This document shows positions 1,375 through 64,000 of a stretch of DNA of 64,000 nucleotides, piece by piece (the first letter of the stretch is position 1; every line of letters begins with the position of its first letter). The position numbers and the translations under genes are program-made. The notes beneath the pieces were generated by a model, which was not told the DNA's origin, searched no databases, and saw nothing but the letters and a program-made list of their open reading frames with translations. Source of the stretch: Kineosporia babensis (lineage in GTDB: Bacteria; Actinomycetota; Actinomycetes; Actinomycetales; Kineosporiaceae); assembly GCF_021129305.1 (NCBI RefSeq), contig NZ_JAJOMB010000016.1, forward strand, positions 124,001 to 188,000, written 5' to 3'.

Positions 1375-2190
1375 ATGACTGATCCTCGGCTCTCCGCCGA
1401 CACCACGATCGACTCCGGCGTTCCGCAGTCGGCCCGGATCTGGAACTACTGGCTCGGTGGCACGAACAACTTCGCGGCCGACCGGGCCGCCGGGGACGAG
1501 GTGCTGGCCCGCATCCCGGACATCGCCCTCGGAGCACGGGCCGATCGTGCCTTTCTGCAGCGGGTGGTCCGGTTCCTGATCGCCGAGGCGGACGTCCGCC
1601 AGTTCCTGGACATCGGGGCCGGGCTGCCCACCGAGAACAACACTCACGAAGTTGCCCAGTCCCTCGATCCGGCCTGCCGCGTGGTCTACGTCGACAACGA
1701 CCCACTGGTCCTGGAGCAGGCCCAGGCCCTGCTGGTCAGCACGCCGGAGGGAGCCAGCGACTACGTGCAGGCCGATCTGCGCGAGCCCGCGGCGATCCTG
1801 ACCGCTGCGGCCCGGACCCTGGACTTCAGCCGGCCGGTCGGGCTGATGCTGCTGGGGGTCGTCAACCATCTGATGGACGACGGTCAGGCCCAGAACGCCG
1901 TCGCCCAGCTGGTCTCGGCCATGCCGGCCGGGAGTTACCTCGTCCTGACCCACTCCACCGCCGAGATCCACGGCGACGCGATGCTCGAGGTGATGCACGA
2001 GACCACGCAGCGCGGCGGTACCCCGATCCGGGCCCGCAACCCCGGTGAGATCGCAGTCTTCTTCAAGACCACCGACCTGCTGGAACCCGGCGTGGTCTCC
2101 TGTTCCCGCTGGCGACCCGAGGACGAGGAGACAGACCCGCCCACCGAGGTCTACCTCTTCGGTGGTGTGGGCCGGATCCAGCTCCACTGA
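1375..2190 (+). CDS. SAM-dependent methyltransferase, DUF574/Methyltransf_19 family
   Basis: A 271-residue protein starting at ATG 1375, with AGAGG about 10 bases upstream; the open frame runs further upstream but those residues look non-coding. The N-terminal [17 protein letters not shown] block is the hallmark of the actinobacterial DUF574 methyltransferases. [10 protein letters not shown] is the SAM-binding motif I, and [11 protein letters not shown] follows as the acidic loop. Family members are abundant in streptomycetes and related genera but substrates are mostly unknown. It is divergent from the chemoreceptor gene and transcribed towards the secreted protein at 2357. Family confident, substrate unknown. 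Confidence 0.93.
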
Positions 2191-2356
2191 GCACCCAGGG
2201 TCAGCCCTCCGATCACCCTTCCCGTCAGGACCAACCAGCCCATCCGTCCCCCACCCAACGACTGAGATCGCAGCATCCGCCCCACCGGCAAGAACGGGAC
2301 GTGCCAGCATCCGACGTGCCCTGCCCGACCGCACGTCTATTTGGGGGAACGAAACG

Positions 2357-4852: not shown

Positions 4853-7458
<2,606 letters not shown>

Positions 7459-7459
<1 letters not shown>

Positions 7460-9087
7460 CACCCTGGGTTCCCCTCCACCGGGCTCTTCGCGCGGTACCA
7501 ACCAGAGGCATCGGTTCGATCCTGACCTTGGTTAACCGTTTCGGGGCGAGCAGGCCTCTCCCCGGCCGGAGACACCACCGGAGCCTCGGGCACGTCGACC
7601 GGGTTCTGCGGCAGATCCACACTCGTACGCAGGCTGATGGGTTTCAGCGCCAGCACGGCCAGGACCCCGAGCGCCGCCACCGCAGCCGCGATCAAGAAGA
7701 GCTGACCGGTCGCATCCGCGTACGCAACCTTCAGGATGTCTCGCACCGGTTCGGGCGTGGCCGGGTCCTGCAGAGCACCGACCACGTTGGCGTTGGGCAG
7801 CTCTTCCGAGACCCGGCTGCTCACCTGCCGCGCCAGCACCGCACCCAGGACGGCCAGTCCGATGGTGCCGCCCAGCGAGCGGAAGAAAGTCACGGTGGAG
7901 GTGGCCGCGCCGATGTCTTTCAGGTGCACCGAGTTCTGTACCAGCAGGATGAAGTTCTGCGCGGTCAGGCCGACCCCGGCGCCGACCATCAGGCTCGCCG
8001 CGGACAGCAGAGGCAGCGGGGTGGAGCGGTCGATCTGACTCAGCCCCAGGAATCCTAGGGTCAGCAGCGCGGTCCCGGTGATCAGGAACGGTTTGATCGC
8101 CCCGGAGCGGCTCAGCAGGTGGCCGCCGATCAGCGAGGCGATGAGGATGCCGATCATCATCGGAATGCTCAGCAGGCCGGACTGCGTGGGGGTGTACTCC
8201 CGGGCCAGCTGGAAGTACTGGCTCAGGAAGACCGTTCCGCCGAACAGCGCGGTCCCGGAGGCCAGCGATCCCAGGATGGCCAGGGCGACCGGGCGCTGAC
8301 CGAGAATGGGCAGGGGCACGATCGGTTCGGCCACCCGCGTCTGCACCCACACGGCCAGCGCGAGCAGCACCACCCCACCGCCGACCAGAGCGGCGCTGGG
8401 CCAGGAGAGCCAGGCGTAGCTGTCGTCGACGAAAGACACCCAGATCAGCAGCGCGCTCACTGCGCCCGAGATCAGGGTGGCCCCGAGGTAGTCGATCTTC
8501 ACCGGGCCGCGGCGGACGACCGGCAGGTGCAGGGTGAACTGCAGGATGGTCAGGGCCGCCACCGCGATCGGCAGGCTGAGCCAGAAGCACCAGCGCCAGC
8601 CCAGCCAGGGCGTGTCCACGATCAGCCCGCCCAGCAGCGGCCCCCCGATCGTGGCCAGGGCAGTCGCGCTGCTCTGGTAGCCGGCGTAACGGCCGCGTTC
8701 CCGGGGAGCGATCATCGCGCCGATCGAGATCTGGACGAGGGTCTGCAGGCCACCCGCCCCCACGCCCTGAACAGCGCGACCGGCGATCAGAACACCCACG
8801 CTCTGGCTGAGGCCGGCCACCACCGCACCCAGCACGAAGATCACCGTCGCGCACTGGACCAGTAGACGTTTGCTGAACAGATCCGCCAGTTTTCCCCAGA
8901 TCGGGGTGGTGGCCGTGGTGGTGAGCAGAGTTGCCGTCACGACCCAGGTGGCCGCGGTCTGGGAACCTTGCAGCGAACCGATCATGCCGGGCAGCGCGGT
9001 GGTGACGACCGTGGCGCTCAGCGTCGAGATGAACAGTGCCGTCAAGAGGCCGCTGAGCGCCTGGAGTGTCTGGCGGTGGGTGTCCAC
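7459..9087 (-). CDS. MFS drug:H+ antiporter, DHA2/EmrB-like
   Basis: A 542-residue integral membrane transporter with about 14 hydrophobic segments. Motif A-like IWGKLADLFSKR follows helix 2, and GRAVQGVGAGGLQTL matches the DHA2 (14-TMS) signature. Typical substrates are hydrophobic drugs or metabolites; the substrate here cannot be told. It starts 3 bases after the aldehyde dehydrogenase stop and its stop overlaps the kinase start, so the three genes form one transcriptional unit. A role in exporting a toxic aldehyde-related compound is only inferred. Confidence 0.93.
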
Positions 9088-9090
9088 GAT

Positions 9091-10545
9091 CTACAGACGA
9101 ATCTGCACCGTCTTGGGGCTCACGAACTCCATCACGCCACCCAGACCACCCTGCCGCCCGTAGCCACTGTTCCGGCGTCCACCGAAACCCAGATGCGGAC
9201 CAGCCGGCGCCACTCCCCCGTTGACCCCGACGTTCCCCGTGTCCAAGGCCGCCGCCACCCGATGCGCCCGGCCGATCTCAGCGGTGAAAACATAGCCGGC
9301 CAGACCGTAATCGGTGTCGTTCGCAATCCCGACCGCAGCGTCCTCGTCGTCGAAGACCTGAACACCGACCACCGGCCCGAACACCTCGTCCCGGGCCAGC
9401 TCTCCGGTGTTGTCCCGCAGCTGGACGACCGTCGGGGCAACGAAGTACCCATCGCTCAGAGCACCGCCGATCCGCTGACCGCCGGTCACCGTCGTCCCAT
9501 AATTCCTTGCCCTGCCGATCATTCCAAGAATCCGGTCCAGCGCGGCCTGACTGATCACCGGCCCCATCGTGACCCCCTCCTCGAACGGATCCCCGGGACG
9601 AGCAGCAGCCACCCGTTCGCTCAACCGCTCGACGAACTGCTCATGCACCGAACGCTGAACCAGGATCCGCGAACCCAAAGTGCAGATCTGCCCGGCATTC
9701 AGCATCAACGCGGAAGCAACCTCGAGCGCCCGGTCCAGATCCCCGTCCTCGAACACCAGAGCAGCTGACTTACCACCCAATTCGAAGACGCAGGGCGTAA
9801 GTTGCGGGGCGGCCGCGGCAGCGATCTGGCGGGCCGAGTTGGGGCTCCCGGTGAAGGTGATCTTGTCGATCCCGGGGTGTGAGACCAGGGCCTGCGACAC
9901 TTTGACATCGGCGACCAGTACATTGAGGACGCCCGCCGGCAGTCCCGCTTCCAGCGCCAGTTCCGCTGCCCGCAGGGACGAGAAAGGCGCCAGCTCCGAG
10001 GGCTTGGCAACGACAGTGCAGCCGGCGGCCAGGGGCGCGGCGACACTCATGCAGAACGCGTTCACCGAGCCGTTCCAGGTCGAGAGGGCGGCCACCACCC
10101 CGTACGGCTCGATCGCGGTGTACTCCAGCACTCCCCGTTCGCTCAACGGCGAGGCCTGCCCGTGCAGCCGGTCCGCCCAGCCCGCCGCCTCCTCCAGCCA
10201 GGCGGCCCCGCCCACCGGCAGATAGCCCGTGAATGCTTTCGGCTGGCCCAGTTCCAGCGCCGCGATGGTAGAAAGCTCCTGCGCATGCTCACGGATCAGT
10301 TGCGCGAAACGCATCAGCACCCGCCGCCGTTCGACCGGATCCCACCGACGCCAGCCGGCCAGCGCAGCGCGAGCAACAGCGACCGCCTCGTCGACCTCGG
10401 CCGTCCCGGCCAGCGACAGACCGGCCTGAGCACGTCCGGTGACCGGGCTGACGTGCTCGTACCAGCCGCCGGAGGCCCGGTCCGGCCGCTGGTCACCGAT
10501 GATGAGCCGGGTTGGGAACAACGCCGTCCGATCGTTGTCGCTCAT
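9091..10545 (-). CDS. NAD(P)-dependent aldehyde dehydrogenase
   Basis: A 484-residue ALDH-superfamily enzyme oxidising an aldehyde to the acid. The active-site Glu lies in FELGGKSAALVF and the catalytic Cys in MLNAGQICTLGSR. The oxyanion Asn is in ALSTWNGSVNAF, and the coenzyme-binding TFTGSPNSAR is present. Length is normal. AGGAGGGATCCGC precedes the ATG. It heads a minus-strand operon with the DHA2 exporter and hybrid kinase. A palindromic TTACCGTAA site lies 25 bases upstream of the start and resembles the operators of the 62-64 kb catabolic cluster. Substrate not identifiable. Confidence 0.95.
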   Translation of the reverse strand: MSDNDRTALFPTRLIIGDQRPDRASGGWYEHVSPVTGRAQAGLSLAGTAEVDEAVAVARAALAGWRRWDPVERRRVLMRFAQLIREHAQELSTIAALELGQPKAFTGYLPVGGAAWLEEAAGWADRLHGQASPLSERGVLEYTAIEPYGVVAALSTWNGSVNAFCMSVAAPLAAGCTVVAKPSELAPFSSLRAAELALEAGLPAGVLNVLVADVKVSQALVSHPGIDKITFTGSPNSARQIAAAAAPQLTPCVFELGGKSAALVFEDGDLDRALEVASALMLNAGQICTLGSRILVQRSVHEQFVERLSERVAAARPGDPFEEGVTMGPVISQAALDRILGMIGRARNYGTTVTGGQRIGGALSDGYFVAPTVVQLRDNTGELARDEVFGPVVGVQVFDDEDAAVGIANDTDYGLAGYVFTAEIGRAHRVAAALDTGNVGVNGGVAPAGPHLGFGGRRNSGYGRQGGLGGVMEFVSPKTVQIRL

Positions 10546-10569: not shown

Positions 10570-10590
10570 TTACCGTAAGGACTACAGTAA
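10570..10590. promoter_or_regulatory. TetR-type operator upstream of ALDH operon
   Basis: TTACCGTAA (10570-10578) is followed by a second half TACAGTAA (10583-10590). CCTTAC/GTAAGG arms make a 13-bp near-perfect palindrome. The same 9-mer core is found at 61979 and 62082, upstream of genes in the lipid-like catabolic cluster. Protein that binds it is inferred, not shown. Confidence 0.6.
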
Positions 10591-52379: not shown

Positions 52380-53614
52380 TGGACGTTGTGCTCACCGATG
52401 CGCGTCACCTCCCCTCCCTGCCCCGCACCTACTACCTCTGGCTCGGCGGCGCGATGGCCTCCCTGATCGGCGACTCCATGCTGTATTTCGCGCTGGCCTG
52501 GGCCGCCACCGCGCACGGCGGAGCCGTCGCCGGGCTGGTCCTGACGGCCATCAACCTGCCGCGCGTCATGCTCCTGCTGGTCGGTGGGGCGCTGGGTGAC
52601 CGTCTCGGGGCGCGCCGGGTGATGATCGCCGGTGACAGCGTCATGCTCGTGGCGTCCGTACTGCTGGCGGCGCTCGCCTATCACCTGGGCGCCGAACCCT
52701 GGCTGCTGATCGGCGTGGGTGTCGTGATCGGAACCGTGGACGCCTTCTACCTGCCGGCCTCCGGATCGATGCCCCGCCGGCTGGTCGGCCCCGCAGGTCT
52801 TCCGCGGGCCCTGGCCCTGCGCCAGAGCGGGTCCCAGCTGATCTCGATGGGGGCCGGCCCGCTGGGCGGAATCCTGGTCGGCGCAGCCGGTCTGGCCGGA
52901 ACCGCGCTGGTCAACGCCGTCACCTTCGCTCTCGTCCTGGTCATCCTGATCGTCGTGCGACCGAACCAGGAACTGCCCCCGGCGCACGCCCGGCAGCCCG
53001 TCCTGCGCGAAGCTGCCGACGGAATCCGCCTCGGCGTCGCCGACCCGATCCTGCGGCCTGCCCTGCTGCTGGTCGGTGCCGCAGCCGGCTTCTTGCTGCC
53101 GATCATGTCGCTGCTCCTGCCCTTGCTTGCCCGGCAGCACGATTGGAGTGCCACCGCCACCGGCCTGGTGGTGGGAGCACAGGGTCTGGGCATGGTGGCC
53201 GTCACCTTGACCGTGGTGCGCCGGGGGCAGTTCAGCCGCCCCGGTCTGGTCGCCTGCCGCGGACTCCTGCTGGCCGGCCTGGGAATTGGGGCCCTGACCG
53301 CAGCTCCGGGCCCCGGCGCGGCCCTGGCCGCCGGCCTCCTCATCGGTGTGGGCAACGGCTTGTTCGCCTCGCACATCGCCCCGCTCATCATGACCGTGAC
53401 CCCGCAGAGCCATCTTTCCCGGATCCAGGCGCTCCTCACCCTGGTCCAGAGCCTGCCCCTGCTGCTGATGAACAACGTCCTGGGCAACCTCGCCACCTTC
53501 ACCGGACCGGCCCTGACGCTGTTCATCTGCTGCATCGCCGTCATCGCCACGGGCCTGGCCGCGCTCACCTCAGAACCCCTCACACGGCTGAGCGCCAGCC
53601 GGGCAGATCAGTAA
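52379..53614 (+). CDS. MFS transporter (DHA3-like)
   Basis: A 411-residue transporter with about 12 hydrophobic segments. The ATG at 52379 overlaps a TAA stop. GGALGDRLGARRVMIAGD is motif A; LPRALALRQSGSQLISMGAGPLGG corresponds to the region after the cytoplasmic loop. This arrangement is like macrolide/siderophore exporters (MFS_3). The open frame continues far upstream through the IS element, but that part is not coding. It converges with the ferredoxin reductase gene, overlapping by 35 bases. Confidence 0.9.
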   Translation: MDVVLTDARHLPSLPRTYYLWLGGAMASLIGDSMLYFALAWAATAHGGAVAGLVLTAINLPRVMLLLVGGALGDRLGARRVMIAGDSVMLVASVLLAALAYHLGAEPWLLIGVGVVIGTVDAFYLPASGSMPRRLVGPAGLPRALALRQSGSQLISMGAGPLGGILVGAAGLAGTALVNAVTFALVLVILIVVRPNQELPPAHARQPVLREAADGIRLGVADPILRPALLLVGAAAGFLLPIMSLLLPLLARQHDWSATATGLVVGAQGLGMVAVTLTVVRRGQFSRPGLVACRGLLLAGLGIGALTAAPGPGAALAAGLLIGVGNGLFASHIAPLIMTVTPQSHLSRIQALLTLVQSLPLLLMNNVLGNLATFTGPALTLFICCIAVIATGLAALTSEPLTRLSASRADQ

Positions 53615-54809
53615 CCGGCGTCAGGTCGACCACCGCCTGGCGCCATCTCCGCAGAGCCTTGGCCATACCGGCTCCGGCAACCGCGCTCACCCGCCCGTCG
53701 TCCACGTACAGGCCAACGAAACGCCTTTCGTCCAAGGATCCTTCAACCACCTCGAAAGCACCGCTGGGAACACCGTGCACCTGAAGCTTGAAGTCGTACT
53801 GGTCGCTCCAGAAGTACGGCACCATCGGCTCGGCCGCAGCAGCCGCCGTGGTGATGAAGGGCCGGCGCGCCAGGATGTCCGCCGCGACCACCTGGGCATG
53901 CTGATTGGCGGTGAACCGATGCTCCACCCGGATCCAACGCGCGTGCCGGGGCGAGTACCAGGCCGCAACGTCGCCGACCGCCCAGACCCCGTCCTGGGCC
54001 CGGCCGTGCTCGTCACACCGCACTCCGCCGGACTCGGCGAGCAAGACCCCCGAACCATCAAGCCATTCCACGCACGGCACCGCGCCGATCGCCACCACCA
54101 CGACGTCTGCGTCCAACTCCCGGCCGTCGGTCAGCCGCAGCCCGCTCACCCGACCGTCCACCGACAAGAATCCGGCCACCGACCGGCCGAGGTACCAGGC
54201 GACCCCGTGCTCCCGGTGCAGATCCGCGACCAAGGCGCCCAGATCGTCTCCAATGACATTGCGCAGCGGCAACTCCATGGGCTCGACCAGCGCAACCGAA
54301 GCCCCGAGAAGACGGCAGGTGGCGGCGATCTCGCACCCCAGGAAGCCACCCCCGACAACCGCGACCCGGCTGTCGGGCCGCAGTTCCGAGCGTAAACCAA
54401 CCAGATCGTCCATGGTTCGGAGCAGGTGCACGCCCCGAAGATCATGCCCGAACGGCAAACGGCGAGGCGTCATGCCGGTGGCGATCACCAGCGCGTCGTA
54501 CTCCACCGAAGCCGAATCGTCCAGAGTAAGCGCCTGTTCAGCAGTGTTCAGCCCGGTCGCCCGTACTCCCGGCCGGTAGGCGACGCCCGCGCTCCGCAAC
54601 TGCTCCCGGGTACGTAACACAGCCCGATCGTCCGTCCATGATCCCGAAAGCAGTTGCTTGGAAAGCGGTGGACGGTCGTAGGGATCGTGCAGTTCGTCGC
54701 CCAGCAGCACCAGCTCGTCCTCGAAACCACCGGCCCGCAGCGCCTCGGCCGTGGCCAGACCGGCTGCCCCGGCACCGACGATCACCGTGCGCGAAGTGCG
54801 CGAGGCCAT
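53580..54809 (-). CDS. Ferredoxin/rubredoxin reductase, FAD-dependent
   Basis: A 409-residue flavoprotein. VIVGAGAAGLATAEALR is the FAD-binding Rossmann motif, VAVVGGGFLGCEIAATCR the NAD(P)H-binding motif and DGVWAVGDVAAW the second FAD motif. The C-terminal reductase domain shows PMVPYFWSDQYDFKLQVHG, the hallmark of putidaredoxin-reductase-like proteins. It passes electrons from NAD(P)H to the ferredoxin encoded just upstream; its ATG overlaps the ferredoxin stop (TGATG). Together they serve the cytochrome P450 at 55115. Confidence 0.95.
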   Translation of the reverse strand: MASRTSRTVIVGAGAAGLATAEALRAGGFEDELVLLGDELHDPYDRPPLSKQLLSGSWTDDRAVLRTREQLRSAGVAYRPGVRATGLNTAEQALTLDDSASVEYDALVIATGMTPRRLPFGHDLRGVHLLRTMDDLVGLRSELRPDSRVAVVGGGFLGCEIAATCRLLGASVALVEPMELPLRNVIGDDLGALVADLHREHGVAWYLGRSVAGFLSVDGRVSGLRLTDGRELDADVVVVAIGAVPCVEWLDGSGVLLAESGGVRCDEHGRAQDGVWAVGDVAAWYSPRHARWIRVEHRFTANQHAQVVAADILARRPFITTAAAAAEPMVPYFWSDQYDFKLQVHGVPSGAFEVVEGSLDERRFVGLYVDDGRVSAVAGAGMAKALRRWRQAVVDLTPVTDLPGWRSAV

Positions 54810-55114: not shown

Positions 55115-56341
55115 ATGCCGAGCAACAGCCCCCACCGCGCCGAAGCCTCCGCCGAGAGCGGCTGTCCGGTTCACGGCACCCTGGAATGGCCTTTCGTGCC
55201 GGACTCCGCGCTGGTACCGCCTGCCGAGTGGACCCAGCTGCGGGCCGAGTGCCCGGTGGCCAGCATCCATTCCGACCTGTACGACGACTCGCTGCTGATC
55301 ACCCGGTACGAGGACGTCAGTGCGCTGCTCAGCGACGGGCGGTTCTGGCGTAAGGCCGCGCCCGGCGAAAGCGGCGTGCGTGGAGCCCAGCTGGAGTCGC
55401 TGGCCAGCGACGAGGGGCACATGCGCTGGCGCCGGCTGCTGAGCCGCTTGTTCACGGCCAAGCGGATGCAGGCCCTGCGCCCGCGGATCACCGAGCTGAC
55501 CAACGAGCTGGTCGACGACATGATCGCCGGTGGCTCACCGGCGGATCTGCGCAAGTCGTTGGGCTTTCCGGTGCCGGTGTACGTGATCTGCGAGCTGCTG
55601 GGCGTGCCGCACGAGCACCGGGCCCAGTTCTCCAGCTGGTCGGACTACTTCCTGAGCGTGTCCAAGTACACCCCGCAGCAGGTCACCGCGGCGATGACCG
55701 AGATGGTCGAGTACATGCGCGAGCACGTCCGGATCAAGCGCGCCGATCCCGGGGACGACCTGATCTCGCAGCTGATCACCGTGGTGGACGCGCAGGACGG
55801 CCGGATGTCCGAGGCCGAGATGGTGCAGACCGCGCAGACTCTGCTGATCGCCGGGCACGAGAGCACCTCGAACATGATCGGCAAGATCGTCGCCCGGCTG
55901 CTGGCCGACCACCGCCGCTGGGAACAGCTGGTGGCCGACCCTTCGCTGGTGCCGAACGCGATCGAAGAAGGCCTGCGGATGGACACCACGCTCACCGTCG
56001 GCCTGCACCGGCACGTCACCCAGGAGACCGAACTGGCCGGGACGACCGTGAAACCCGACACCACCGTGGTGATCTCCACGTCTGCGGCCAACCGGGACGA
56101 GCAGGCGTTCGAGCGACCGGAGGAGATGGACCTGAACCGTAACCCGAATCCGCACCTGACTTTCAGCGTGGGGCCGCGCTCGTGTCTGGGCCAGTCGCTG
56201 GCCCGGGTCGAGCTGCAGACCGTGGTCTCGGTGCTGCTGGAACGGCTGCCCACGCTGGCGCTGGCGGTCCCGCCGGAGGATCTGGAACTGCGCAAGGGCC
56301 TGATGGTCGGTGGGCTGGAGGCAGTACCGGTGCGCTGGTGA
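55115..56341 (+). CDS. Cytochrome P450
   Basis: A 408-residue soluble class I monooxygenase. AAGGTGG is 6 bases before ATG 55115. The heme Cys is in FSVGPRSCLGQSLARVEL, the I-helix oxygen motif in LIAGHESTSNMIGK, and the EEGLR block is the ExxR motif. It hydroxylates an unknown hydrophobic substrate, using the divergent ferredoxin pair. The TetR gene at 56345 follows after 3 bases. Position in a cluster with acyl-CoA dehydrogenases and hydratases suggests a catabolic hydroxylase. Confidence 0.96.
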   Translation: MPSNSPHRAEASAESGCPVHGTLEWPFVPDSALVPPAEWTQLRAECPVASIHSDLYDDSLLITRYEDVSALLSDGRFWRKAAPGESGVRGAQLESLASDEGHMRWRRLLSRLFTAKRMQALRPRITELTNELVDDMIAGGSPADLRKSLGFPVPVYVICELLGVPHEHRAQFSSWSDYFLSVSKYTPQQVTAAMTEMVEYMREHVRIKRADPGDDLISQLITVVDAQDGRMSEAEMVQTAQTLLIAGHESTSNMIGKIVARLLADHRRWEQLVADPSLVPNAIEEGLRMDTTLTVGLHRHVTQETELAGTTVKPDTTVVISTSAANRDEQAFERPEEMDLNRNPNPHLTFSVGPRSCLGQSLARVELQTVVSVLLERLPTLALAVPPEDLELRKGLMVGGLEAVPVRW

Positions 56342-56344
56342 ACG

Positions 56345-57049
56345 ATGATGTTGCCCATGACGGATTCCCAGCGGCCGCGAGTGCCCCGCCGGCAGCAGGC
56401 CAAGGCCACGCGTGAGCTCCTGCTGACCACGGCGGAGCGGTTGTACGCGGAGAACGGGCTGGCCGCGGTGTCGAGCCGGCAGATCATCGAAGCGGCTGGG
56501 GTGGGCAACAATTCGGCGCTGGCGTACCACGTCGGCACCCGGGACGACCTGCTCCGTGCGATTGCCCGCTCGCACGGAGAGGTCATCTCCGGCCTGACCA
56601 GGCGCAAGCTGGACGCGGTGCGGGACGAGCAGAACGCCCGTGAGGTGGTCGCCGCCATCGTCCAGCCCTACACGATGCACCTGACCGGGCTCGGGCATCC
56701 CAGCTGGTTCGCCCGGTTCACCGCCCAGCTGGCCGCCGACCCGGTGTTCAGCCGGGAGGTGCACCAGGACCCGGACGTGATCGATCAGGTCAACGTCAGC
56801 CTGACCAAGCTGCTGGCCGCGCACGGCCCGATCTCCGACGAGCACGCCACCCTGCGCCGGCAGATGCTCCGGCTGACCGTGGTGCACACCTGCGCCGAGT
56901 ACGAACGCCAGTCGGCCGGGAGCGGGGTCCCGGCCGACTGGCCCGATATCGGTGAGGCGCTGACCGATGCGGTCACGGGGTTGCTGACTGCCCCTGCGGA
57001 TCGAGCGGAGGCGGGTTCGCGCCGTCGGAACGGTGGCGCTGCACGGTGA
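56345..57049 (+). CDS. TetR/AcrR family regulator
   Basis: A 234-residue regulator; ATG 56345 is 3 bases past the P450 stop, with 56357 as alternative. HTH: SSRQIIEAAGVGNNSALAYHVGTRDDLL, a GNNSALAYH type seen in TetR regulators of terpenoid or steroid genes. The C-terminal half starts FTAQLAADPVFSREVHQDPDVIDQ. Co-transcribed with the P450. The end overlaps the convergent VOC gene by 77 bases. Target likely P450 promoter; effector unknown. Confidence 0.9.
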   Translation: MMLPMTDSQRPRVPRRQQAKATRELLLTTAERLYAENGLAAVSSRQIIEAAGVGNNSALAYHVGTRDDLLRAIARSHGEVISGLTRRKLDAVRDEQNAREVVAAIVQPYTMHLTGLGHPSWFARFTAQLAADPVFSREVHQDPDVIDQVNVSLTKLLAAHGPISDEHATLRRQMLRLTVVHTCAEYERQSAGSGVPADWPDIGEALTDAVTGLLTAPADRAEAGSRRRNGGAAR

Positions 57050-57953
57050 AGTCCTTCTCGAACAGTTCCAGCCGGATGCCGTCCGGGTCGCGGAAGCACA
57101 AGGTCCGGCGGGGTTTCCAGCCCGGCCCGTAGTCCCACTCCTCGATCTCGCCGGCTCCCAGGATCGCCCGGCAGGCTTCGATGTCGTCCACCTCGAAGCC
57201 GATCCGGGCGATGCCCAGGTTGTTGGCCTGCTCGTACGGGGTGAGGGTGTCCGGGGTCGGGGCGGGGTGGTGGAACTGCGACAGGTCGATGTGGAACGGC
57301 CCGCCGGCCCGCCCGGTGTACAGGTGGCTGTCCCACTGGCTGAGCACCGAGCCCGGCCCTTGTGAGCTCTCGACCGGCTGGGGCGGCACGCTCTCGCTGG
57401 CCAGGTGCAGGCCGAGAACGTTGCTGTAGAAGTCCATCGAGCGCTCGATGTCGCGCACCGAGGGGTTGGTGTGGATCAGCGTCTCGTGGATCTCGGTCGC
57501 TTCCTCGATCTGCTGGGCGGGGAAGGAGATGATCACCCCGTCCGGGTCCTGGATGCTCGTATAGCCGCGGTAGATCAAATGATTGGACGGTTCGACTCCG
57601 GCACCTTTGAGCTGCTGGAGTTTGCTGCGGGCGCTGGTGGTGATGAAGGCCATCTTGGCCAGGCCCACGTGCCAGAACACCGGGTAGGCCTGGCCCACCG
57701 GCCTCGGGCTGGTCCATTCGATCAGGTGCACCTGCATGGGCAGCGCGCCGGAGCGGTCGTCCAGGGCGTAACCGCGGAACGATCCCTCGGCGATGCCGAG
57801 GCTGTGGAAGGTCTGCTCCGGGGCGTCGATCGAAGTGAGGACGCGTAGTGGCGTCAGGTTTTCGTAGAAGGCGCGCGAGCGTTCGGCGTCGGAGACGTTG
57901 ACCACGAGGTAGGCGATCCGGTTGATCCGGTCGGCCAGAGGTGAGCGCTGCAT
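56973..57953 (-). CDS. Two-domain VOC (glyoxalase/extradiol-dioxygenase fold) protein
   Basis: A 326-residue protein from ATG 57953, whose AGAAGGGA ribosome site overlaps the end of the MFS gene. Domain 1 starts INRIAYLVVNVSDAERSRAFYENL; domain 2 starts LIHTNPSVRDIERSMDFYSNVLGL. Candidate metal ligands are His in LIHTN, His in FHIDLSQF and Glu in RLELFEKDF. Extradiol dioxygenases have this two-module form, but isomerases and lyases do too. It ends the four-gene operon acyl-CoA dehydrogenases-MFS-VOC. Confidence 0.88.
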   Translation of the reverse strand: MQRSPLADRINRIAYLVVNVSDAERSRAFYENLTPLRVLTSIDAPEQTFHSLGIAEGSFRGYALDDRSGALPMQVHLIEWTSPRPVGQAYPVFWHVGLAKMAFITTSARSKLQQLKGAGVEPSNHLIYRGYTSIQDPDGVIISFPAQQIEEATEIHETLIHTNPSVRDIERSMDFYSNVLGLHLASESVPPQPVESSQGPGSVLSQWDSHLYTGRAGGPFHIDLSQFHHPAPTPDTLTPYEQANNLGIARIGFEVDDIEACRAILGAGEIEEWDYGPGWKPRRTLCFRDPDGIRLELFEKDFTVQRHRSDGANPPPLDPQGQSATP

Positions 57954-57966
57954 GCTCGTCCCTTCT

Positions 57967-59610
57967 CTAGACATGGGCCCCGCCGCGGGCCGGGGTGCGC
58001 CCCGAGCGCAGGGCCAGGCCGATCCCGAAGGCGATCAGGCAGGGCAGCGCGCCCAGCAGCAGGTAGGACTGGGTGAAGGCGTCCTGGGTGTGGATGCTCG
58101 CGATCTCCGAGACCTTTTCCCCGCCGTCCGGCAGCGCGCTGATCAGCCGGAGCGGGTGGGCGGCGAGCAGCGATCCGAGCAGGGCGGTGAAGGCGGCCAG
58201 GCCGATCGAGCTGAACGACTGCACCATGCCGGTGCTCACGCCCTGCAGCCCGGCCGGTACCGAGTCGATGATCAGGTTGGGCCAGGCGGCGTAGAAGAAC
58301 CCGGCGCCGAGGCCGAACAGGATGCCGATCAGGGCCTGCTGCTGCCAGTGCTCGTGCCAGACCGACCACAGGCCGCAGGCCAGGGCAGCCGAGGCGGTGC
58401 CGATCAGCAGCGGCAGCCGGGCCCCGTAGCGGCGGGCGATGTAACCGCCGAGCGGGGCGAAGGCCACGGCGAAGAGGCTGAGCCAGATGGTCACCAGCAG
58501 GGCCAGCTGCATGACCGAGAAGCCGCTGCCGTAGCTCACCGCGCCCTCCAGCCGCACGCTCGAGCCGAGCGCGTCCACGCTGGTGCCGGCCTGGGCCGCG
58601 ATCGGTTCCAGGATCGAGGCCCGTAGTTCCGGCTCCTCGGGGGTGCGGAAGATGAAGGCCGTGTTCACCCCGATCGCGCTCTGCGCCCCGGTGACCAGGA
58701 AGATGCAGCACATCACGAGCAGCACCTGGGGTGAGCGCAGCAGGGTCAGCGGCATCATCGGCACCCGGACCCGGGCCTCCCAGGCCAGGAAGGCCACGAT
58801 CAGCACGAGCCCGCCGGCCAGGAAGGCCAGGGCTGCGGCATCGGTCCAGCCCCAGGTGGAGCCCCGGCTGAGGTATACCAGCACCCCGGCCACCCCGGTC
58901 CCGAACAACGCAGCCCCGACCACGTCGAGCCGGTCGCGCACCCGTACCGGTGACTCCGGCACCACGAAGAAGAGCACGACCGCGGTGACGATCATGTAGA
59001 TGAACATGAACCAGTACACCGAGCGCCAGCTGAACGCATCCGTCAGGGCCCCGCACAGGATCGGCCCGAGCAGCCCGGCCACCGCCAGGCCGGTGCCGAT
59101 GAACCCGACCGCGACCGGGATCCAGGTGCGCGGCAGCAGGTCTCGCACCAGGCCGTAGTTGATCACGGTCATCCCCAGGGCGACCGACTCCAGTCCGCGC
59201 CCGGCCAGGAAGACCGGCCACGAGGTGGTGACCGCGCACAGCAGGGAGCCCACGATGAACAGCCCGGCACAGGTGAGCAGCAGGCGTTTCTTGCCCCACA
59301 GGTCGCCGGACTTGCCGATCAGCGCGATCGTGGCCCCGCCGATCAGCCCGGTCACGCTGACCGCCCAGCTGAGGTTGCCGGCGCTCTGCCCGAAGGCCAG
59401 GCCGAGGTCGGGCAGGATGATCGAGGTCATCCCGATCTGCAGCGGTACCACCTCGGTGAGCAGGATGATCGAGACCATCACCGCCACCAGCCGGGCTCGG
59501 GAGGCGTTGACGAGCCGTCCGGCGTCCTCGTCGACGGTGTGCCGGCGAGCCTGCTCGAGGGCGTCGGCCGGATCGTCGGCCGCGGCGGTCTGGGTGGGTT
59601 TCTCGGTCAT
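57967..59610 (-). CDS. MFS transporter
   Basis: A 547-residue transporter with about 14 hydrophobic segments, longer than usual because of a loop between residues about 330-380 (PEEPELRASILEPIAAQAG). ATG 59610 with AGGAC upstream is preferred to 59625. IGKSGDLWGKKRLLL is motif A. Operon with acyl-CoA dehydrogenases upstream and VOC downstream suggests uptake of the catabolic substrate, or efflux of a product. Direction not known. Confidence 0.9.
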   Translation of the reverse strand: MTEKPTQTAAADDPADALEQARRHTVDEDAGRLVNASRARLVAVMVSIILLTEVVPLQIGMTSIILPDLGLAFGQSAGNLSWAVSVTGLIGGATIALIGKSGDLWGKKRLLLTCAGLFIVGSLLCAVTTSWPVFLAGRGLESVALGMTVINYGLVRDLLPRTWIPVAVGFIGTGLAVAGLLGPILCGALTDAFSWRSVYWFMFIYMIVTAVVLFFVVPESPVRVRDRLDVVGAALFGTGVAGVLVYLSRGSTWGWTDAAALAFLAGGLVLIVAFLAWEARVRVPMMPLTLLRSPQVLLVMCCIFLVTGAQSAIGVNTAFIFRTPEEPELRASILEPIAAQAGTSVDALGSSVRLEGAVSYGSGFSVMQLALLVTIWLSLFAVAFAPLGGYIARRYGARLPLLIGTASAALACGLWSVWHEHWQQQALIGILFGLGAGFFYAAWPNLIIDSVPAGLQGVSTGMVQSFSSIGLAAFTALLGSLLAAHPLRLISALPDGGEKVSEIASIHTQDAFTQSYLLLGALPCLIAFGIGLALRSGRTPARGGAHV

Positions 59611-59638
59611 GGTCGTCCTCGCCATTGATGGAGCGCCA

Positions 59639-60829
59639 TTAAGAAGTGGGGCCCTGCCGCACCTGACGGAACGGCACACCCTTGTCGGCGGAGGCTTCCC
59701 TCGGCATGCCGAGCACCCGCTCGGCGATCACGTTGCGGGCCATCTCGGTGCTGCCGCCGCCCAGGCTCAGCCCTTGCCGGCCCAGGTAGCGCAACGCCCA
59801 CGAGCCGGAGTCGGTGACCCCGGCGGGCCCGGCCAGCTCGAGCCCGCAGTCGATCTCCGCCTGCTGGGCCTCGGCGTGGAACAGGCGGATGTACGACATG
59901 GCCGCATCCGGCAGTTCCCCGTCGACCAGCCGCTGGGTCAGGTCCTCGGCCAGCGCGGAGTGCACCAGGTGCAGTACCTCGCTGCGGGCCAGCAGGTCGC
60001 GAGCCCGTTCCGAATCGGCCTGGCCGCTCTCCCGCACCAGGTCGGTCAGGGTGCCGTCGCGGGTCATCTGTCCCTGCCGGACCCCGCTGACGAAAGGCGA
60101 GGCCCCGCCCACGGCCGCCCGCTCGTGGTAGAGCAGGCGGGTGGCCACGGCCCAGCCCCCGTTCACCTCGCCCAGCACCGCCGAGGAGGGCAGCCGCACG
60201 TCGTCGAAGAACTCCTCGCAGAACTCGTGGCTGCCGTTCAGCATCTGGATCGGGTTGACCTGCACCCCCGGCTGCCGGATCCGCATCAGGAACATGGTCA
60301 GGCCCTGGTGCTTGGGCACGTCCCAGTCGGTGCGGGCCAGCACCATCGCCCAGTCCGCCGTGTCGGCGCTGGAGGACCAGGTCTTGGCCCCGTTCAGCAG
60401 CCAGCCGTCCGCGGTGCGCTCGGCCCGGGTGAGCACCCCGGCCAGGTCCGAGCCGCCGGAAGGTTCCGAAAGGAACTGGCAGAACAGCAGTTCCCCGGCG
60501 ATCGCGGCCGGCAGGAACTCCTTCTTCTGCTCCTCGGAACCGGTGTCCAGCAAGGTAGGACCGCAGATCGTCAGCGTGGGAAAGTTCAGCCGCACCGGCA
60601 TCTCGTAATCGAGTGCCTCCTCGTTGAAAACCCGCTGGTGCTGCGGCGTCAGTCCTTGCCCGCCGTACTCCCGGGGGTAGCAGAGCCCGGCGAAGCCGCC
60701 CTCGTACAGCTGTCGCTGCAGTTGCCGGCCGCGATCCCAGTCGAACTCGCCCTCCGTTGAAGCCTTGGGCAGATTGGCTGCCAGCCACTCCCGGGCCCGC
60801 AGCCGGAACTGTTCCAGGTTCTCGCTCAC
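59639..60829 (-). CDS. Acyl-CoA dehydrogenase (larger partner)
   Basis: A 396-residue FAD enzyme of the acyl-CoA dehydrogenase family starting at GTG 60829, overlapping the preceding gene's stop (GTGA). FLSEPSGGSDLAGVLTRAER and NGAKTWSSSADTADWAMVLART are the FAD/substrate motifs; GRQGLSLGGGSTEMARNVIAERVLGMPRE is the conserved C-terminal helix. The partner gene at 60826 encodes a shorter, divergent homologue, so a heteromeric enzyme is probable, as in FadE26/27 or FadE28/29 of cholesterol degradation. Reaction would be alpha-beta dehydrogenation of a bulky acyl-CoA. Confidence 0.93.
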   Translation of the reverse strand: MSENLEQFRLRAREWLAANLPKASTEGEFDWDRGRQLQRQLYEGGFAGLCYPREYGGQGLTPQHQRVFNEEALDYEMPVRLNFPTLTICGPTLLDTGSEEQKKEFLPAAIAGELLFCQFLSEPSGGSDLAGVLTRAERTADGWLLNGAKTWSSSADTADWAMVLARTDWDVPKHQGLTMFLMRIRQPGVQVNPIQMLNGSHEFCEEFFDDVRLPSSAVLGEVNGGWAVATRLLYHERAAVGGASPFVSGVRQGQMTRDGTLTDLVRESGQADSERARDLLARSEVLHLVHSALAEDLTQRLVDGELPDAAMSYIRLFHAEAQQAEIDCGLELAGPAGVTDSGSWALRYLGRQGLSLGGGSTEMARNVIAERVLGMPREASADKGVPFRQVRQGPTS

Positions 60830-61944
60830 GCAGCCGCCTCCCGATCCAGCAGCAAGGACGCCACCACCTGGCGATGCTCGTACGGTGTGCCGTAGGTCTG
60901 GCGGGCCAGCATCGCCCGCCGCAGATACAGGTGCAGGTCGTGTTCCATGGTCTGGCTCAGGCCTCCGAGCAGCTGGGCGCAGTCCTGCATGATCTCCAGG
61001 CTCACCTCCCCCACATACGATTTGGCCGCGCTGACCAGCAGAGCAGCGTCTGCCTCGGTGTCCTGCACGGCTCTGGCCGCCCTGAGCGCGATCGCCCGGG
61101 CCGCGTGCTGATGGGTGGCCAGGTCGGCGTAGCGGTGTTTCAGCGCCTGATAAGAGGCCAGCGGACGCCCGAACGAGTACCGCTCGAAAGCCCATTGGGT
61201 GGCCAGATCCAGTACCCGCCCGCTACCGCCGACCGTCTCCGCCACCTGCAACACGTTCAGAACCTGCTGCAACCGGGCCACGATCGGTTCGACGTCAGGC
61301 CCTTGCGCCACCAGGGTTCCCCGGCCGTCGTTCACCGCAAGATCGGCGAAAGGCCTGGCCGGATCGATGGATTGCGTCGGCCTGACGGTCACGCCCGGCG
61401 CATGGGTGTCGATCAGCACGAGCACGGGTCTTTCCTGGGTGGCTGCTCGCACCAGTACCAGGTCGGCGTGAGCGCCGAACTCCACTGCGAGTGCGGTGCC
61501 GTTCAGCAGCAATCCGTCCCGGCCCGGCTGCGCCGACAACGACGTCGCGGGTGGGTGGGCCCAGGTCGCCACCCGCTCGCCGGCCATCAGTTCCGACAAC
61601 CAACGGACGTCCACCCCGGGTTGGGCTTTCGGGTGCACCAGGGCGGCCAGCACGGAATTGAGGACGTTCGTGGGGCCGGGAACCGCCAGCTCACCGAGGA
61701 TTTCGGTGAGGGCGAAAAGGTCGAGCAGCGCTTCGCCGGTGAGGCTGCCGCCGCCGTGTTCCTCGGGCACCAGCAGCGAGGTCCAGCCCAGCTCGGTGAC
61801 CTGCCGCCACCAGGGCCGGTCCAGCCCCTGTCCTTCCCGCCACCAGGTTCGTAGCTGGGTGGTCGAGGCCTGCGCCTCGGCGAACTTGCGGGTGGTGTCG
61901 AGGAACATCCTCAGCTCGGTGGACCGCGCCGTTGCACTCGCCAT
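60826..61944 (-). CDS. Acyl-CoA dehydrogenase (shorter partner)
   Basis: A 372-residue homologue; ATG 61944 has GGAGG 8-12 bases upstream. TSLLVPEEHGGGSLTGEALLDLFALTEILGELAVPG is the N-terminal helical domain. AFERYSFGRPLASYQALKHRYADLA and YVGEVSLEIMQDCAQLLGG are C-terminal family motifs. The middle beta domain is poorly conserved, as in the second subunits of heteromeric steroid acyl-CoA dehydrogenases. First gene of the operon, with a TTACTGTAA operator 35 bases upstream. Confidence 0.9.
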   Translation of the reverse strand: MASATARSTELRMFLDTTRKFAEAQASTTQLRTWWREGQGLDRPWWRQVTELGWTSLLVPEEHGGGSLTGEALLDLFALTEILGELAVPGPTNVLNSVLAALVHPKAQPGVDVRWLSELMAGERVATWAHPPATSLSAQPGRDGLLLNGTALAVEFGAHADLVLVRAATQERPVLVLIDTHAPGVTVRPTQSIDPARPFADLAVNDGRGTLVAQGPDVEPIVARLQQVLNVLQVAETVGGSGRVLDLATQWAFERYSFGRPLASYQALKHRYADLATHQHAARAIALRAARAVQDTEADAALLVSAAKSYVGEVSLEIMQDCAQLLGGLSQTMEHDLHLYLRRAMLARQTYGTPYEHRQVVASLLLDREAAA

Positions 61945-61978
61945 TCCAGACCTCCGGAACCGGACGATTCGGTCGCCA

Positions 61979-62000
61979 TTACTGTAAGGCTCACAGTTAC
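61979..62000. promoter_or_regulatory. TetR-type operator upstream of dehydrogenase operon
   Basis: TTACTGTAA (61979-61987) with a second half CACAGTTAC (61992-62000). ACTGTAAG-GC-TCACAGT is a near-perfect dyad. 35 bases in front of the acyl-CoA dehydrogenase start at 61944. Confidence 0.65.
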
Positions 62001-62081
62001 GTCGGCGACAGGGTTGCGAGCCGGGCCGGGGACGAACGGTCCGGCCGCGGCGGCCGCTGATGACGGTTGCTACCGTTGCGA

Positions 62082-62090
62082 TTACAGTAA
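62082..62090. promoter_or_regulatory. TetR-type operator upstream of TetR gene
   Basis: TTACAGTAA is the reverse complement of the 61979 core. It lies 53 bases upstream of the mini-ORF that leads the TetR gene, consistent with autoregulation. Confidence 0.6.
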
Positions 62091-62142
62091 ATCTGCAGCT
62101 CCGGGCCCGGAGCGGCACCGGAGCAGAGAGAAGGCAGGCACC

Positions 62143-62199
62143 GTGAAGGCCGAACCCAGCAGCCGCACCGCCCTCCGCCGGCCGGGCCGGCAGCCGTGA
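62143..62199 (+). CDS. Mini-ORF leading the TetR gene
   Basis: GTG 62143 follows AGAGAGAAGGCAGG, a strong ribosome site. It would encode 18 residues (MKAEPSSRTALRRPGRQP). Its TGA overlaps the TetR GTG at 62196 (GTGA), which has no Shine-Dalgarno. Translational coupling is likely. The alternative is that the TetR protein starts earlier by frameshift, which I see no reason for. Confidence 0.5.
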   Translation: MKAEPSSRTALRRPGRQP

Positions 62200-62897
62200 G
62201 CGGCCCGCAGGCCCGGTCGCGGCGTCCCCGAGGTTCGATCGACCCGGAGAAGATTCTCGACGGGGCCTTCGAACTGGCCGAGCGCGACGGGCTCGACAAC
62301 CTGTCCATGCCGAGCCTGGCCGCTCACCTCGGCCTGGGCGTGACCAGCATCTACTGGCATTTCCGGAGCAAGGAGGAACTGCTCAGCCGGATGGCCCTGC
62401 GGGCGATGGAGACGGTCGGCAGCCGGATGCCGGGCCTCGACGGCCGCGACCCGCAGCAGTGGCGGGCCTTCCTGCACGAGTACGCCACCACGTTCCGCCA
62501 GGTGCATTCCGAGGCCGGGCTGCTGGCCGAGATCACCCGGCTGCGGGTGGGCATCTACGGCAAGGAGGCCACCGCCCATGTCTTCCGCAACTACGAGAAG
62601 ATCCTGGCCTACCTGACCGCCGCCGGCTTCCGTCTCGAAACCGGCTGGTACGTGTACTGTTCGATCACCCTGTACGTCAACGGCTTCGTCCTCAACGAGA
62701 CCCAGAGGCTCCGGAACGGCGCTCCCCCGGTCGGACGTCAGCAGTTGGGCCTGCTCGACGTTGATTCGACGCCGCTGCTGGCCGAACTGGTCGGCCGGGA
62801 GCCGGTGATCCTGGACCTGACCGGCGACAACAGCTTCAAGTTCGGCCTGGACCTGGTGCTCGACCGGGCCGAGCAGATCCTGCTCGGGAGTCAGTGA
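62196..62897 (+). CDS. TetR/AcrR family regulator of catabolic cluster
   Basis: A 233-residue regulator starting at GTG 62196. HTH: NLSMPSLAAHLGLGVTSIYWHFRSKEELLSRM, exceptionally close to TetR class consensus (VTSIYWHFRSK). The C-terminal domain has FRQVHSEAGLLAEITRLRVGI and WYVYCSITLYVNGFVLNETQR. It is flanked by TTACTGTAA sites at 61979, 62082 and 63846, so it is the best candidate to bind them. It overlaps the MaoC-like gene tail by 7 bases. Likely inducer an acyl-CoA, by analogy. Confidence 0.92.
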   Translation: MSGPQARSRRPRGSIDPEKILDGAFELAERDGLDNLSMPSLAAHLGLGVTSIYWHFRSKEELLSRMALRAMETVGSRMPGLDGRDPQQWRAFLHEYATTFRQVHSEAGLLAEITRLRVGIYGKEATAHVFRNYEKILAYLTAAGFRLETGWYVYCSITLYVNGFVLNETQRLRNGAPPVGRQQLGLLDVDSTPLLAELVGREPVILDLTGDNSFKFGLDLVLDRAEQILLGSQ

Positions 62898-63283
62898 TCC
62901 AGTTCGACGGTGGCGGTGCCGGTGGCCAGTCGCTGCTGCTCTTGGTCGAGCACGGTCAGGGCGATCTCGACCCGTTCGGCGCCGACCTGGGTGATCTCGC
63001 CGGTGGCGGTCACCTCGCCGCCGGTGTCGGGGCTGCGGAACTGCACCGACAGGCCGCCGACCCGGCCGCTGCGGTCCTGCTCCTCGAGCCACTGCCGCAG
63101 CAGGCAGTGCAGGTAGGCCACCTGCAGGTTCCCCATCCCGAAGGCGCCCGGCATCCCGGCCGCCCGGCCCGCCTCATGGTCCATGTGGATCGGCACGAAC
63201 TCGCTGTTCACCGCCGCGTAGCGGTTCCAGGCGGCGAAGCCGGTGCGGCGCCGGAACTGCCCGATCGAATCGCCTTCTCTCAC
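62891..63283 (-). CDS. MaoC-like hot-dog hydratase
   Basis: A 130-residue single hot-dog protein. FVPIHMDHEAGRAAGMPGAFGMGNL carries the hydratase 2 motif (D..H.D.E.A...G), and VQFRSPDTGG, then ATGTATVELDH finish the fold. It corresponds in size and form to ChsH1/HadB-type subunits, which need a second hot-dog partner. The partner gene, 63309, lies 25 bases upstream. Expected reaction is hydration of a 2-enoyl-CoA made by the dehydrogenases. Confidence 0.92.
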   Translation of the reverse strand: MREGDSIGQFRRRTGFAAWNRYAAVNSEFVPIHMDHEAGRAAGMPGAFGMGNLQVAYLHCLLRQWLEEQDRSGRVGGLSVQFRSPDTGGEVTATGEITQVGAERVEIALTVLDQEQQRLATGTATVELDH

Positions 63284-63308
63284 AATGCCCTCCCGCGTCG
63301 GGATCGCG

Positions 63309-63809
63309 TCAGTATCGAATCAGCGTGAACCGAGAGCGTTTGACCAGCTCACCGCCCTGGTTACGCCACACGTCCTCAGTTGTGCTCAGCAGCATCCGCC
63401 CCAGCCGCCCGTCCCGTTCGGTGTACCCGGCCAGCGAGCTCTCGCTGGTGATCACGTCGCCGGAGCGCACCGGCACGCCGTAGTCCTCCGAGATACCGCC
63501 GTTGAGCTGGAACTTCAGGCCCGGTCCGGCCACCCCGATCTGCTTCTCGGTGCGATCGGGATCGTTGCCTTCCACCCCCTCGGAGGCCGGATGGCGTTTC
63601 TGGTCGGCCACCGCCCAGGCGAACGGATTGAATTCCGCGGGCGCCACGTCCTCGTCCAGATAGCGCTGCGGGGGCGGTTGCGGCCAGTAGACGGCGATCG
63701 CCCAGCGCCGGATGTCCGACGCAGTGACCGGGTAACTCACCCGCCGCAAGATCCGCGTGCCCACGGCTGCCTGCATGTCTGGTGTCACGAAGGTGCTGCC
63801 GGACTCCAC
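63309..63809 (-). CDS. FAS1-like/MaoC N-terminal-type hot-dog dehydratase
   Basis: About 166 residues from GTG 63809; the frame continues to TTG 63881 but would then cover the 63846 operator. VSYPVTASDIRRWAIAVYWPQPPP is the signature of the MaoC N-terminal/FAS1-like domain (HadA, ChsH2-N). GLKFQLNGGISEDYGVPVRSGDVITSESSLAGYTERDG follows. It has the structural but not the catalytic half of an R-hydratase and should pair with the MaoC-like protein. Start codon uncertain. Confidence 0.9.
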   Translation of the reverse strand: MESGSTFVTPDMQAAVGTRILRRVSYPVTASDIRRWAIAVYWPQPPPQRYLDEDVAPAEFNPFAWAVADQKRHPASEGVEGNDPDRTEKQIGVAGPGLKFQLNGGISEDYGVPVRSGDVITSESSLAGYTERDGRLGRMLLSTTEDVWRNQGGELVKRSRFTLIRY

Positions 63810-63845
63810 GGCCACCTGCTCTCGGGTCGACAACAGTCCAGACCC

Positions 63846-63867
63846 ATACTGTAAGAACAACGGTAAA
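63846..63867. promoter_or_regulatory. TetR-type operator upstream of hydratase pair
   Basis: TACTGTAA (63847-63854) followed by ACGGTAAAT (63860-63868 region) forms a dyad matching the 61979 site. It is 37 bases in front of the preferred hydratase start, the same spacing as at the dehydrogenase operon (35 bases). Confidence 0.6.
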
Positions 63868-63940
63868 TCTGGAAGGCGCAAATCCCTTCACCGCACGAAC
63901 GATTCGGATCGCCCCAGGGGCGTTGACGCCTGCCGCTCCT

Positions 63941-63959
63941 AACTGTAAGCCTTACTGTT
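63941..63959. promoter_or_regulatory. TetR-type operator at right edge
   Basis: AACTGTAAG (63941-63949) and CTTACTGTT (63951-63959) give a clear dyad about a central C. A possible -35 TTGACG (63923-63928 region) sits ahead of it on the plus strand. It probably serves a gene beyond the window. Confidence 0.6.
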
Positions 63960-64000
63960 GGGCGCGCGGGCTTCTGCTTCTGATCCCGGATCGAGCGCCG

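Follow-up and report, generated by a model that had tools for sequence, protein, structure and literature searches.

A TetR-type regulator predicted to control a catabolic regulon through a 19-bp operator in Kineosporia babensis

The TetR-type regulator encoded at position 62196 of a 64,000-nucleotide stretch of the Kineosporia babensis genome (assembly GCF_021129305.1, contig NZ_JAJOMB010000016.1, positions 124,001 to 188,000; this whole stretch is hereafter called the window) is very likely to be a local, ligand-released repressor of a catabolic regulon with five operators, as judged from sequence comparisons within this genome and across related ones. The best reading is that of a pathway-specific, autoregulated repressor which would cover its target promoters until a metabolite of the pathway releases it. 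The enzyme genes beside the regulator gene most likely serve the breakdown of a fatty-acid-like compound, and the five operator copies mark the genes that are likely to be controlled. Regulators of this kind are known, and our confidence in the regulon is high.

The operator element and its distribution in the genome

Alignment of the dyads revealed two ACNGT half-sites with a centre-to-centre distance of 12 bp, bounded on either side by A or T, which defines the 19-bp dyad WACNGT-N7-ACNGTW. ACNGT pairs at this spacing occur exactly five times in the 64-kb window, at 10572, 61981, 62072, 63848 and 63942, and the corresponding predicted operators are designated O5 (10572) and O1 to O4 (the other four, in this order; Table 1). 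The centres of O1 and O2 are separated by 91 bp and those of O3 and O4 by 94 bp, so that two operators would be situated within each of two divergent promoter pairs. The leave-one-out matrix scores of the five sites range from 21.5 to 26.3, and nothing besides them exceeds 11.8 when a 93-kb stretch is scanned with the full matrix.

A preliminary description of this DNA had reported a regulon at 61979-63959, marked by four 17-bp dyads at 61979, 62082, 63846 and 63941 with the core TTAC(T/C)GTAA. The four dyads were found where it placed them; the element itself spans 19 bp by alignment of the sites, and a fifth copy, at 10571-10589, had been missed. The 9-mer core is exact at 61979 (+) and 62082 (-) and carries one mismatch at 63846 and 63940; being exact at two of the four dyads only, it was ruled out as the operator. 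Core-to-start distances of 35 and 37 bp hold for ATG 61944 and GTG 63809 (31 bp with GTG 63815), the other sites lying at 25 bp (O5) and 79 bp (O4). The targets proposed between 61979 and 63959 are retained, but the predicted reach of the regulon is larger and extends 51 kb upstream as well as beyond the window edge.

Within the 9.4-Mb genome (89 contigs), WACNGTN7ACNGTW occurs at 16 places, five of them inside the window (binomial P = 6e-8), in agreement with the earlier statement that so many copies are unlikely by chance; its reversed control occurs at three places. A search for TACTGTAANNNTTACAGTA with up to three mismatches returned five places, exactly O1 to O5, against three for the reversed control. 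This search was not blind, as TACTGTAANNNTTACAGTA was read from sites of relatives that had been found with the window-trained matrix, and the mismatch limit was chosen in the knowledge that the window sites had two to three mismatches. None of the other 11 places of the strict pattern lies within three mismatches of TACTGTAANNNTTACAGTA; six of these 11 (L003-L008) were examined, by pattern scan. The sites are confined to this region of the genome. A random density of the motif genome-wide, named beforehand as the outcome that would count against the regulon, was not observed, since both the strict and the TACTGTAANNNTTACAGTA searches concentrate in the window.

The regulator, its recognition helix and the operator in other genomes

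The 62196 protein belongs to the TetR family according to its N-terminal helix-turn-helix (PF00440, 53.4 bits; cutoff 24) and to the tetracycline-repressor-like TetR_C_1 subfamily according to its C-terminal domain (PF02909, 46.5 bits; cutoff 21), while six NCBIfam models match it and none reaches its cutoff. Among solved structures, tetracycline repressors and their engineered variants are nearest by sequence. A single gene in the genome encodes the GVTS form of the recognition helix, and the protein fits, together with the window sites, a class defined in this analysis, namely the clade of TetRs with a GVTS(I/L)YW helix and the WACNGT-N7-ACNGTW operator. An 18-codon leader open reading frame (ORF) with a GTG start and AGAAGG just upstream is located at 62143-62199, and its TGA stop overlaps the TetR start codon (GTGA). 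Consequently, translation of the TetR may be coupled to that of the leader.

Matches to the TetR at E <= 0.001 were obtained in 51 of 57 relatives, the best-scoring one being 31% identical (E 3.7e-16), and a search of genome contigs identified 14 distant TetR loci, of which L019 alone has a site scoring at least 15. Among 394 genomes of the class, 36, that of K. babensis included, match at E <= 1e-20, with 32-41% identity for the best match in each other genome. The strict pattern WACNGTRAGNCTYACNGTW was found in three of the 394: the genome under study (two sites), G190, where it precedes the region matched in the TetR homologue by approximately 156 bp, and G214 (one site), which has no TetR match at E <= 1e-20.

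Forty stretches of at most 20 kb, each holding a TetR homologue (L076-L115; 741 kb in total), were drawn from 33 of the 35 other matching genomes (G093 and G298 were left out) and scanned with a matrix derived from O1 to O5; 34 loci (214 kb), 33 with weaker TetR relatives and one window flank, served as controls. Sites of at least 18 bits number 61 and occur in 31 of the 40 stretches, compared to none in the control loci and 0, 0, 1, 0 and 0 in five Markov simulations of the homologue stretches. At 12 bits or more, 131 sites were found in 37 of the 40 stretches, while each simulation gave 2-5 and the control loci together gave 10. When a Rhodococcus plasmid locus is included, 56 of the 63 sites of at least 18 bits are situated outside core coding sequence, to which 75% of the bases belong; for 42 of the 63, a start codon lies at a distance of 11-53 bp, coding and start positions being taken from crude gene calling. 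Of 15 genomes chosen from the 35 with a homologue, 13 contain the strict variant WACNGTNANNNTNACNGTW, as do 2 of 15 genomes that lack a homologue (Fisher P = 1.5e-4); both sets were hand-picked, and hence not blind, after sites near many homologues had already been seen. In the homologue genomes, 36 of the 43 places of the variant are within 100 kb of a homologue on the same contig. In a de novo dyad count over 41 stretches, the three forms of the operator rank 6th, 8th and 10th by loci-weighted score and show the highest observed/expected ratios among the best 15 rows (1657-3315), with control counts of 0, 1 and 0. The GC-rich words which outrank them, occurring about once per locus, probably represent conserved coding sequence.

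A helix of the form GV[TA]S[I/L/T]YW is carried by 43 of 67 extracted TetR relatives and by the window protein (44 of 68), and these 44 proteins form one clade without intruders (support 0.93). The loci of the 24 TetRs with other helices, which are mostly shorter, contain no site above 13.2. As computed here, helix and operator co-occur in relatives across genera; this supports the earlier nomination of the 62196 TetR as the regulator and strongly supports it as the putative binder of the operators. On balance, a reasonable case can be made that the window protein is part of a TetR subfamily, so far uncharacterised, in which helix and operator follow a fixed code (GVTS-I/L-YW with TACTGTAAnnnTTACAGTA), and that this subfamily has spread to diverse beta-oxidation clusters of several actinomycete genera.

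The plasmid pYLL1 of Rhodococcus sp. YL-1 encodes a TetR 38.8% identical to the 62196 protein, in the neighbourhood of hydratase, thiolase, aldehyde dehydrogenase (ALDH), 3-hydroxyacyl-CoA dehydrogenase, MaoC and VOC genes. Its sites are located before the thiolase gene (25.6), between two hydratase genes (19.6), before the TetR gene (15.9), before the dehydrogenase gene (16.8) and, at 5964, at the end of a hypothetical gene (16.6). A Streptomyces plasmid (L117) harbours two TetR relatives side by side, with a best site of 15.2. Twenty-three homologue-bearing genomes belong to a single genus (g44 of family f22; 4.6-7.5 Mb), whose clusters differ in enzyme content from those of Rhodococcus. Of 41 stretches searched, 7 contain a P450 and an ALDH related to those of the window, and the one that was annotated shows sites before the P450, the ALDH and other genes. 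Two TetR paralogues 16-30 kb apart exist in 8 of the 35 other matching genomes, including 7 of the 23 of g44; in the seven genomes for which both stretches were read, both paralogues have the same helix (L076/L077, L078/L079, L081/L082, L084/L085, L091/L092, L100/L101, L104/L105), and paralogues within a genome may share operators.

In the relatives, 13 of 122 flanks contain a third half-site exactly 12 bp beyond the dyad (for example L088:9132-9162, L081:2662-2692, L098 and L101), whereas nearly all other outside offsets give 0-3 of 122. This points to dimers that may stack cooperatively along extended arrays. A second peak, at offset 5 (11 of 122 flanks), is unexplained. At the same threshold, none of the five window sites has a third half-site at 12 bp.

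Proposed mechanism, alternative readings and known repressors

In the proposed mechanism, a dimer of the 62196 TetR would bind the 19-bp, TACTGTAAnnnTTACAGTA-like operator at five places. O1 and O2 lie where the acyl-CoA dehydrogenase operon and the TetR gene diverge, O3 and O4 where the MaoC hydratase operon diverges from the acyl-CoA synthetase-thiolase-DUF35-SDR operon, and O5 precedes the ALDH-MFS operon, 51 kb away. O4 is preceded at 12 bp by TTGACG (63923-63928) and O5 at 14 bp by TTGACT; with the usual spacer, the -10 box of these two promoters would lie inside the operator. The enzyme operons have their operators 25-79 bp ahead of the start codons, in the case of O4 and O5 at the expected -10 position, and repressor bound there would block RNA polymerase until a substrate or CoA-ester intermediate occupies the C-terminal domain and the repressor comes off. 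O2 would provide autoregulation of the TetR gene, which is suggested, like release by a CoA ester or substrate of the pathway, by the general behaviour of TetR proteins, as exemplified by BkaR and MftR (see below). The enzymes could then lead from an aldehyde via the acid to a CoA ester, followed by dehydrogenation, hydration and cleavage by an Ltp2-like thiolase-fold protein with its DUF35 partner. We infer binding by the 62196 protein, repression, ligand release, operon structure and pathway alike.

Several observations weigh against this proposal. No good -35 hexamer stands in the 30 bp preceding O1, O2 or O3, and a sigma-70 consensus scan of 61900-64000 returned no promoter, so that occlusion of polymerase at these three operators is suggested by position alone. 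No close match to the TetR was found in the 57 close relatives, five other genomes of the genus included, and the homologues used are only 29-42% identical to it. The control loci comprise less sequence (214 kb) than the test stretches (741 kb), one control site reaches 15 (16.3 in L019, from a low-GC genome), and 7 of the 63 relatives' sites are located inside core coding. Both homologue genomes without the strict variant (G152 and G368) come from g101, though the matrix scan gave two sites, scoring 22.1 and 20.9, in the stretch of G368 (L090). Nine of the 40 helix-bearing homologue stretches, among them L113, L087 and L115, have no site of at least 18 bits. L113 (G217:C206, 2.3-Mb genome) encodes enzymes closer to those of the window than any other locus seen (52% and 56% for the MaoC halves, 41% and 43% for the dehydrogenases), with a GVTSLYW-type TetR beside them, yet has no detectable operator. 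In such members the operator may have drifted, which leaves a real gap.

It is very unlikely that the dyads are bound by another regulator, such as the second TetR, encoded at 56345 after the P450 gene. Though its gene shares an island with the operators, and a weak relative (29%) of it occurs near the site-bearing locus L090, such a relative is listed in one of 41 stretches only, and both the spacing search and the matrix scan of the window found no operator in front of the P450-TetR 56345 pair. It is the 62196-type helix, encoded in its GVTS form by this one gene, that tracks the operator across genera. Activation by the 62196 protein, alone or combined with repression, is unlikely at any of the promoters. 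The 79 bp between O4 and its start codon would suit an activator, as would the lack of a good -35 hexamer at O1 to O3, a trait often seen in activated promoters; however, O4 and O5 sit at the expected -10 box, 42 of the 63 sites in relatives are close to a start codon (11-53 bp), and the solved structures nearest to the protein by sequence are those of tetracycline repressors and their engineered variants. Chance dyads, or a repeat family without a regulatory role, are scarcely credible: ACNGT is itself palindromic, so half-sites are easily over-read, and a looser palindrome, WACNGTWAGNCTWACNGTW with three mismatches, gave an uninformative 26 places against 75 for its reversed control, but the dyads are confined to the locus, stand in promoter positions and are found with the regulator in other genera.

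By title or abstract, none of the papers listed in the literature searched describes the operator, those holding the letters TACTGTAA or TACTGTA not being among the papers examined. Motifs of mycobacterial TetRs have been given as logos, with no letters in the portion of the text available, and one of these could be this operator (PMC4482099). The window operators match none of six known operator sequences tested (those of BkaR, MftR and AlkU, taken from papers, and those of KstR, KstR2 and tetO). The mycobacterial BkaR (Rv2506/MSMEG_4718), an autoregulated TetR repressor whose operator has GTTA(N)T(N4)A(N)TAAC as its core, is described in the available excerpt as adjoining the divergent catabolic operon which it controls, with two palindromes in the shared intergenic region, a few more sites and binding as a dimer (PMC3920632). 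The predicted system resembles it in these respects, but O1-O5 miss 5-6 of the 10 specified bases, and by this measure the 62196 protein is not a BkaR. MftR, according to the part of the report consulted, represses through a 27-bp mycofactocin operator and responds to long-chain acyl-CoAs (PMC8728441). The NCBIfam model MftR2 is the second-best family match of the 62196 protein, but its score (NF038211, 30.2 bits against a cutoff of 285) places the protein outside MftR/MftR2, and O1-O5 miss 4-5 of 10 bases of T-N2-GGCA-N5-TGCC-N2-A (PMC8728441, same part). For AlkU of Rhodococcus jostii RHA1, a TetR repressor of an oxidation pathway, the excerpt proposes two inverted repeats (PMC6921075); O1-O5 miss 9-12 of 18 bases of IR2, the one compared.

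The tetracycline repressor TetR shares both Pfam domains and provides the best NCBIfam (NF010319) and PDB (2ns7 and others) sequence relatives. In contrast to it, the 62196 TetR is linked to catabolic enzymes, scores 84.2 bits on NF010319 (cutoff 265), which excludes membership, and has predicted operators that miss the tetO core at 7-9 of 15 bases. KstR and KstR2, the regulators of the steroid regulons, are TetR repressors of beta-oxidation-type enzymes in actinomycetes. Their operators are missed at 3-5 of 8 (KstR) and 5-7 of 10 bases (KstR2), and NF033703 gives 19.5 bits against a cutoff of 280, which places the protein outside KstR. The preliminary description had likewise set the motif apart from KstR and KstR2; a link to steroid genes, for which it proposed to look, does not follow from the present data.

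With these assignments, an orphan TetR would gain a defined operator, a class of ligands that can be tested and a defined list of targets, from which the outline of a CoA-dependent degradation route emerges. The helix-operator code appears to transfer to other genera, making regulons there predictable. Since this genome yielded no additional good copy of the operator, it could also be used as a clean sensor part in GC-rich hosts.

Predicted target operons and surroundings

The analysis supports a regulon that would comprise a unit of two acyl-CoA dehydrogenase genes, an MFS and a VOC gene, the TetR gene itself, a two-subunit MaoC hydratase, the acyl-CoA synthetase-thiolase-DUF35-SDR genes and an ALDH-MFS pair (Table 1). 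The O1 operon is read leftward, the TetR gene rightward and the MaoC pair, after O3, leftward. Standard terminators were not found in 61900-64000.

Table 1. Predicted operators, regulator and target genes (window numbering; operator scores as matrix score / leave-one-out).
Feature	Coordinates	Strand	Remarks
TetR regulator, 233 aa	62196..62897	+	TetR_N and TetR_C_1 (PF02909); recognition helix GVTSIYW
Predicted operator O1, TACTGTAAGGCTCACAGTT	61980..61998	no strand	35 bp upstream of acyl-CoA dehydrogenase start 61944 (-); 27.5 / 24.5
Predicted operator O2, TACCGTTGCGATTACAGTA	62071..62089	no strand	Before TetR gene, autoregulation presumed; 24.4 / 21.5
Predicted operator O3, TACTGTAAGAACAACGGTA	63847..63865	no strand	37 bp upstream of MaoC N-half GTG 63809 (31 if GTG 63815); 25.6 / 22.1
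Predicted operator O4, AACTGTAAGCCTTACTGTT	63941..63959	no strand	Upstream of acyl-CoA synthetase operon, 79 bp to start; 27.4 / 21.7
Predicted operator O5, TACCGTAAGGACTACAGTA	10571..10589	no strand	25 bp upstream of aldehyde dehydrogenase ATG 10545; 28.0 / 26.3
Acyl-CoA dehydrogenase, small-subunit-like	60826..61944	-	Best NCBIfam IpdE2, below cutoff
Acyl-CoA dehydrogenase, large-subunit-like	59639..60829	-	PimC-like, below cutoff; GTG start overlaps preceding stop (GTGA)
MFS transporter	57967..59625	-	Contiguous and same strand as dehydrogenases; ATG 59625 candidate start
Two-domain VOC/glyoxalase-fold protein	56973..57974	-	Presumed end of O1 operon
MaoC-type hydratase N-half	63309..63809	-	FAS1_DH_region
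MaoC-type hydratase C-half	62891..63283	-	MaoC_dehydratas, 27.5 bits (cutoff 27)
Aldehyde dehydrogenase	9091..10545	-	Downstream of O5
MFS transporter	7459..9087	-	Same strand, 3 bp after aldehyde dehydrogenase
Acyl-CoA synthetase operon	Starts 39 bp past window edge, ATG 64039		Faced by O4

Beyond the window edge, the order of genes is NDP-forming acyl-CoA synthetase, thiolase-fold protein, DUF35 partner and SDR. By sequence, the synthetase is nearest to a DMSP lyase and to ADP-forming CoA ligases, the thiolase-fold protein to PDB 4u4e and Ltp2 (6ok1), and the DUF35 protein to 9myr_B and ChsH2(DUF35) 6ok1_B, which would fit a CoA-dependent degradation route that ends in a retro-aldol or thiolytic step.

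The segment 51032-53413 holds an IS605 OrfB/TnpB-type gene and, ahead of it on the same strand, an ORF of 384 aa that has no match in Pfam. A ferredoxin-reductase-like gene is located at 53580-54809. The P450 gene and the second TetR gene (55115-57049) are 3 bp apart and read together. A hybrid histidine kinase gene with two receiver-domain stretches (4853-7501) lies on the same strand directly after the ALDH-MFS pair downstream of O5 and may be co-transcribed with it.

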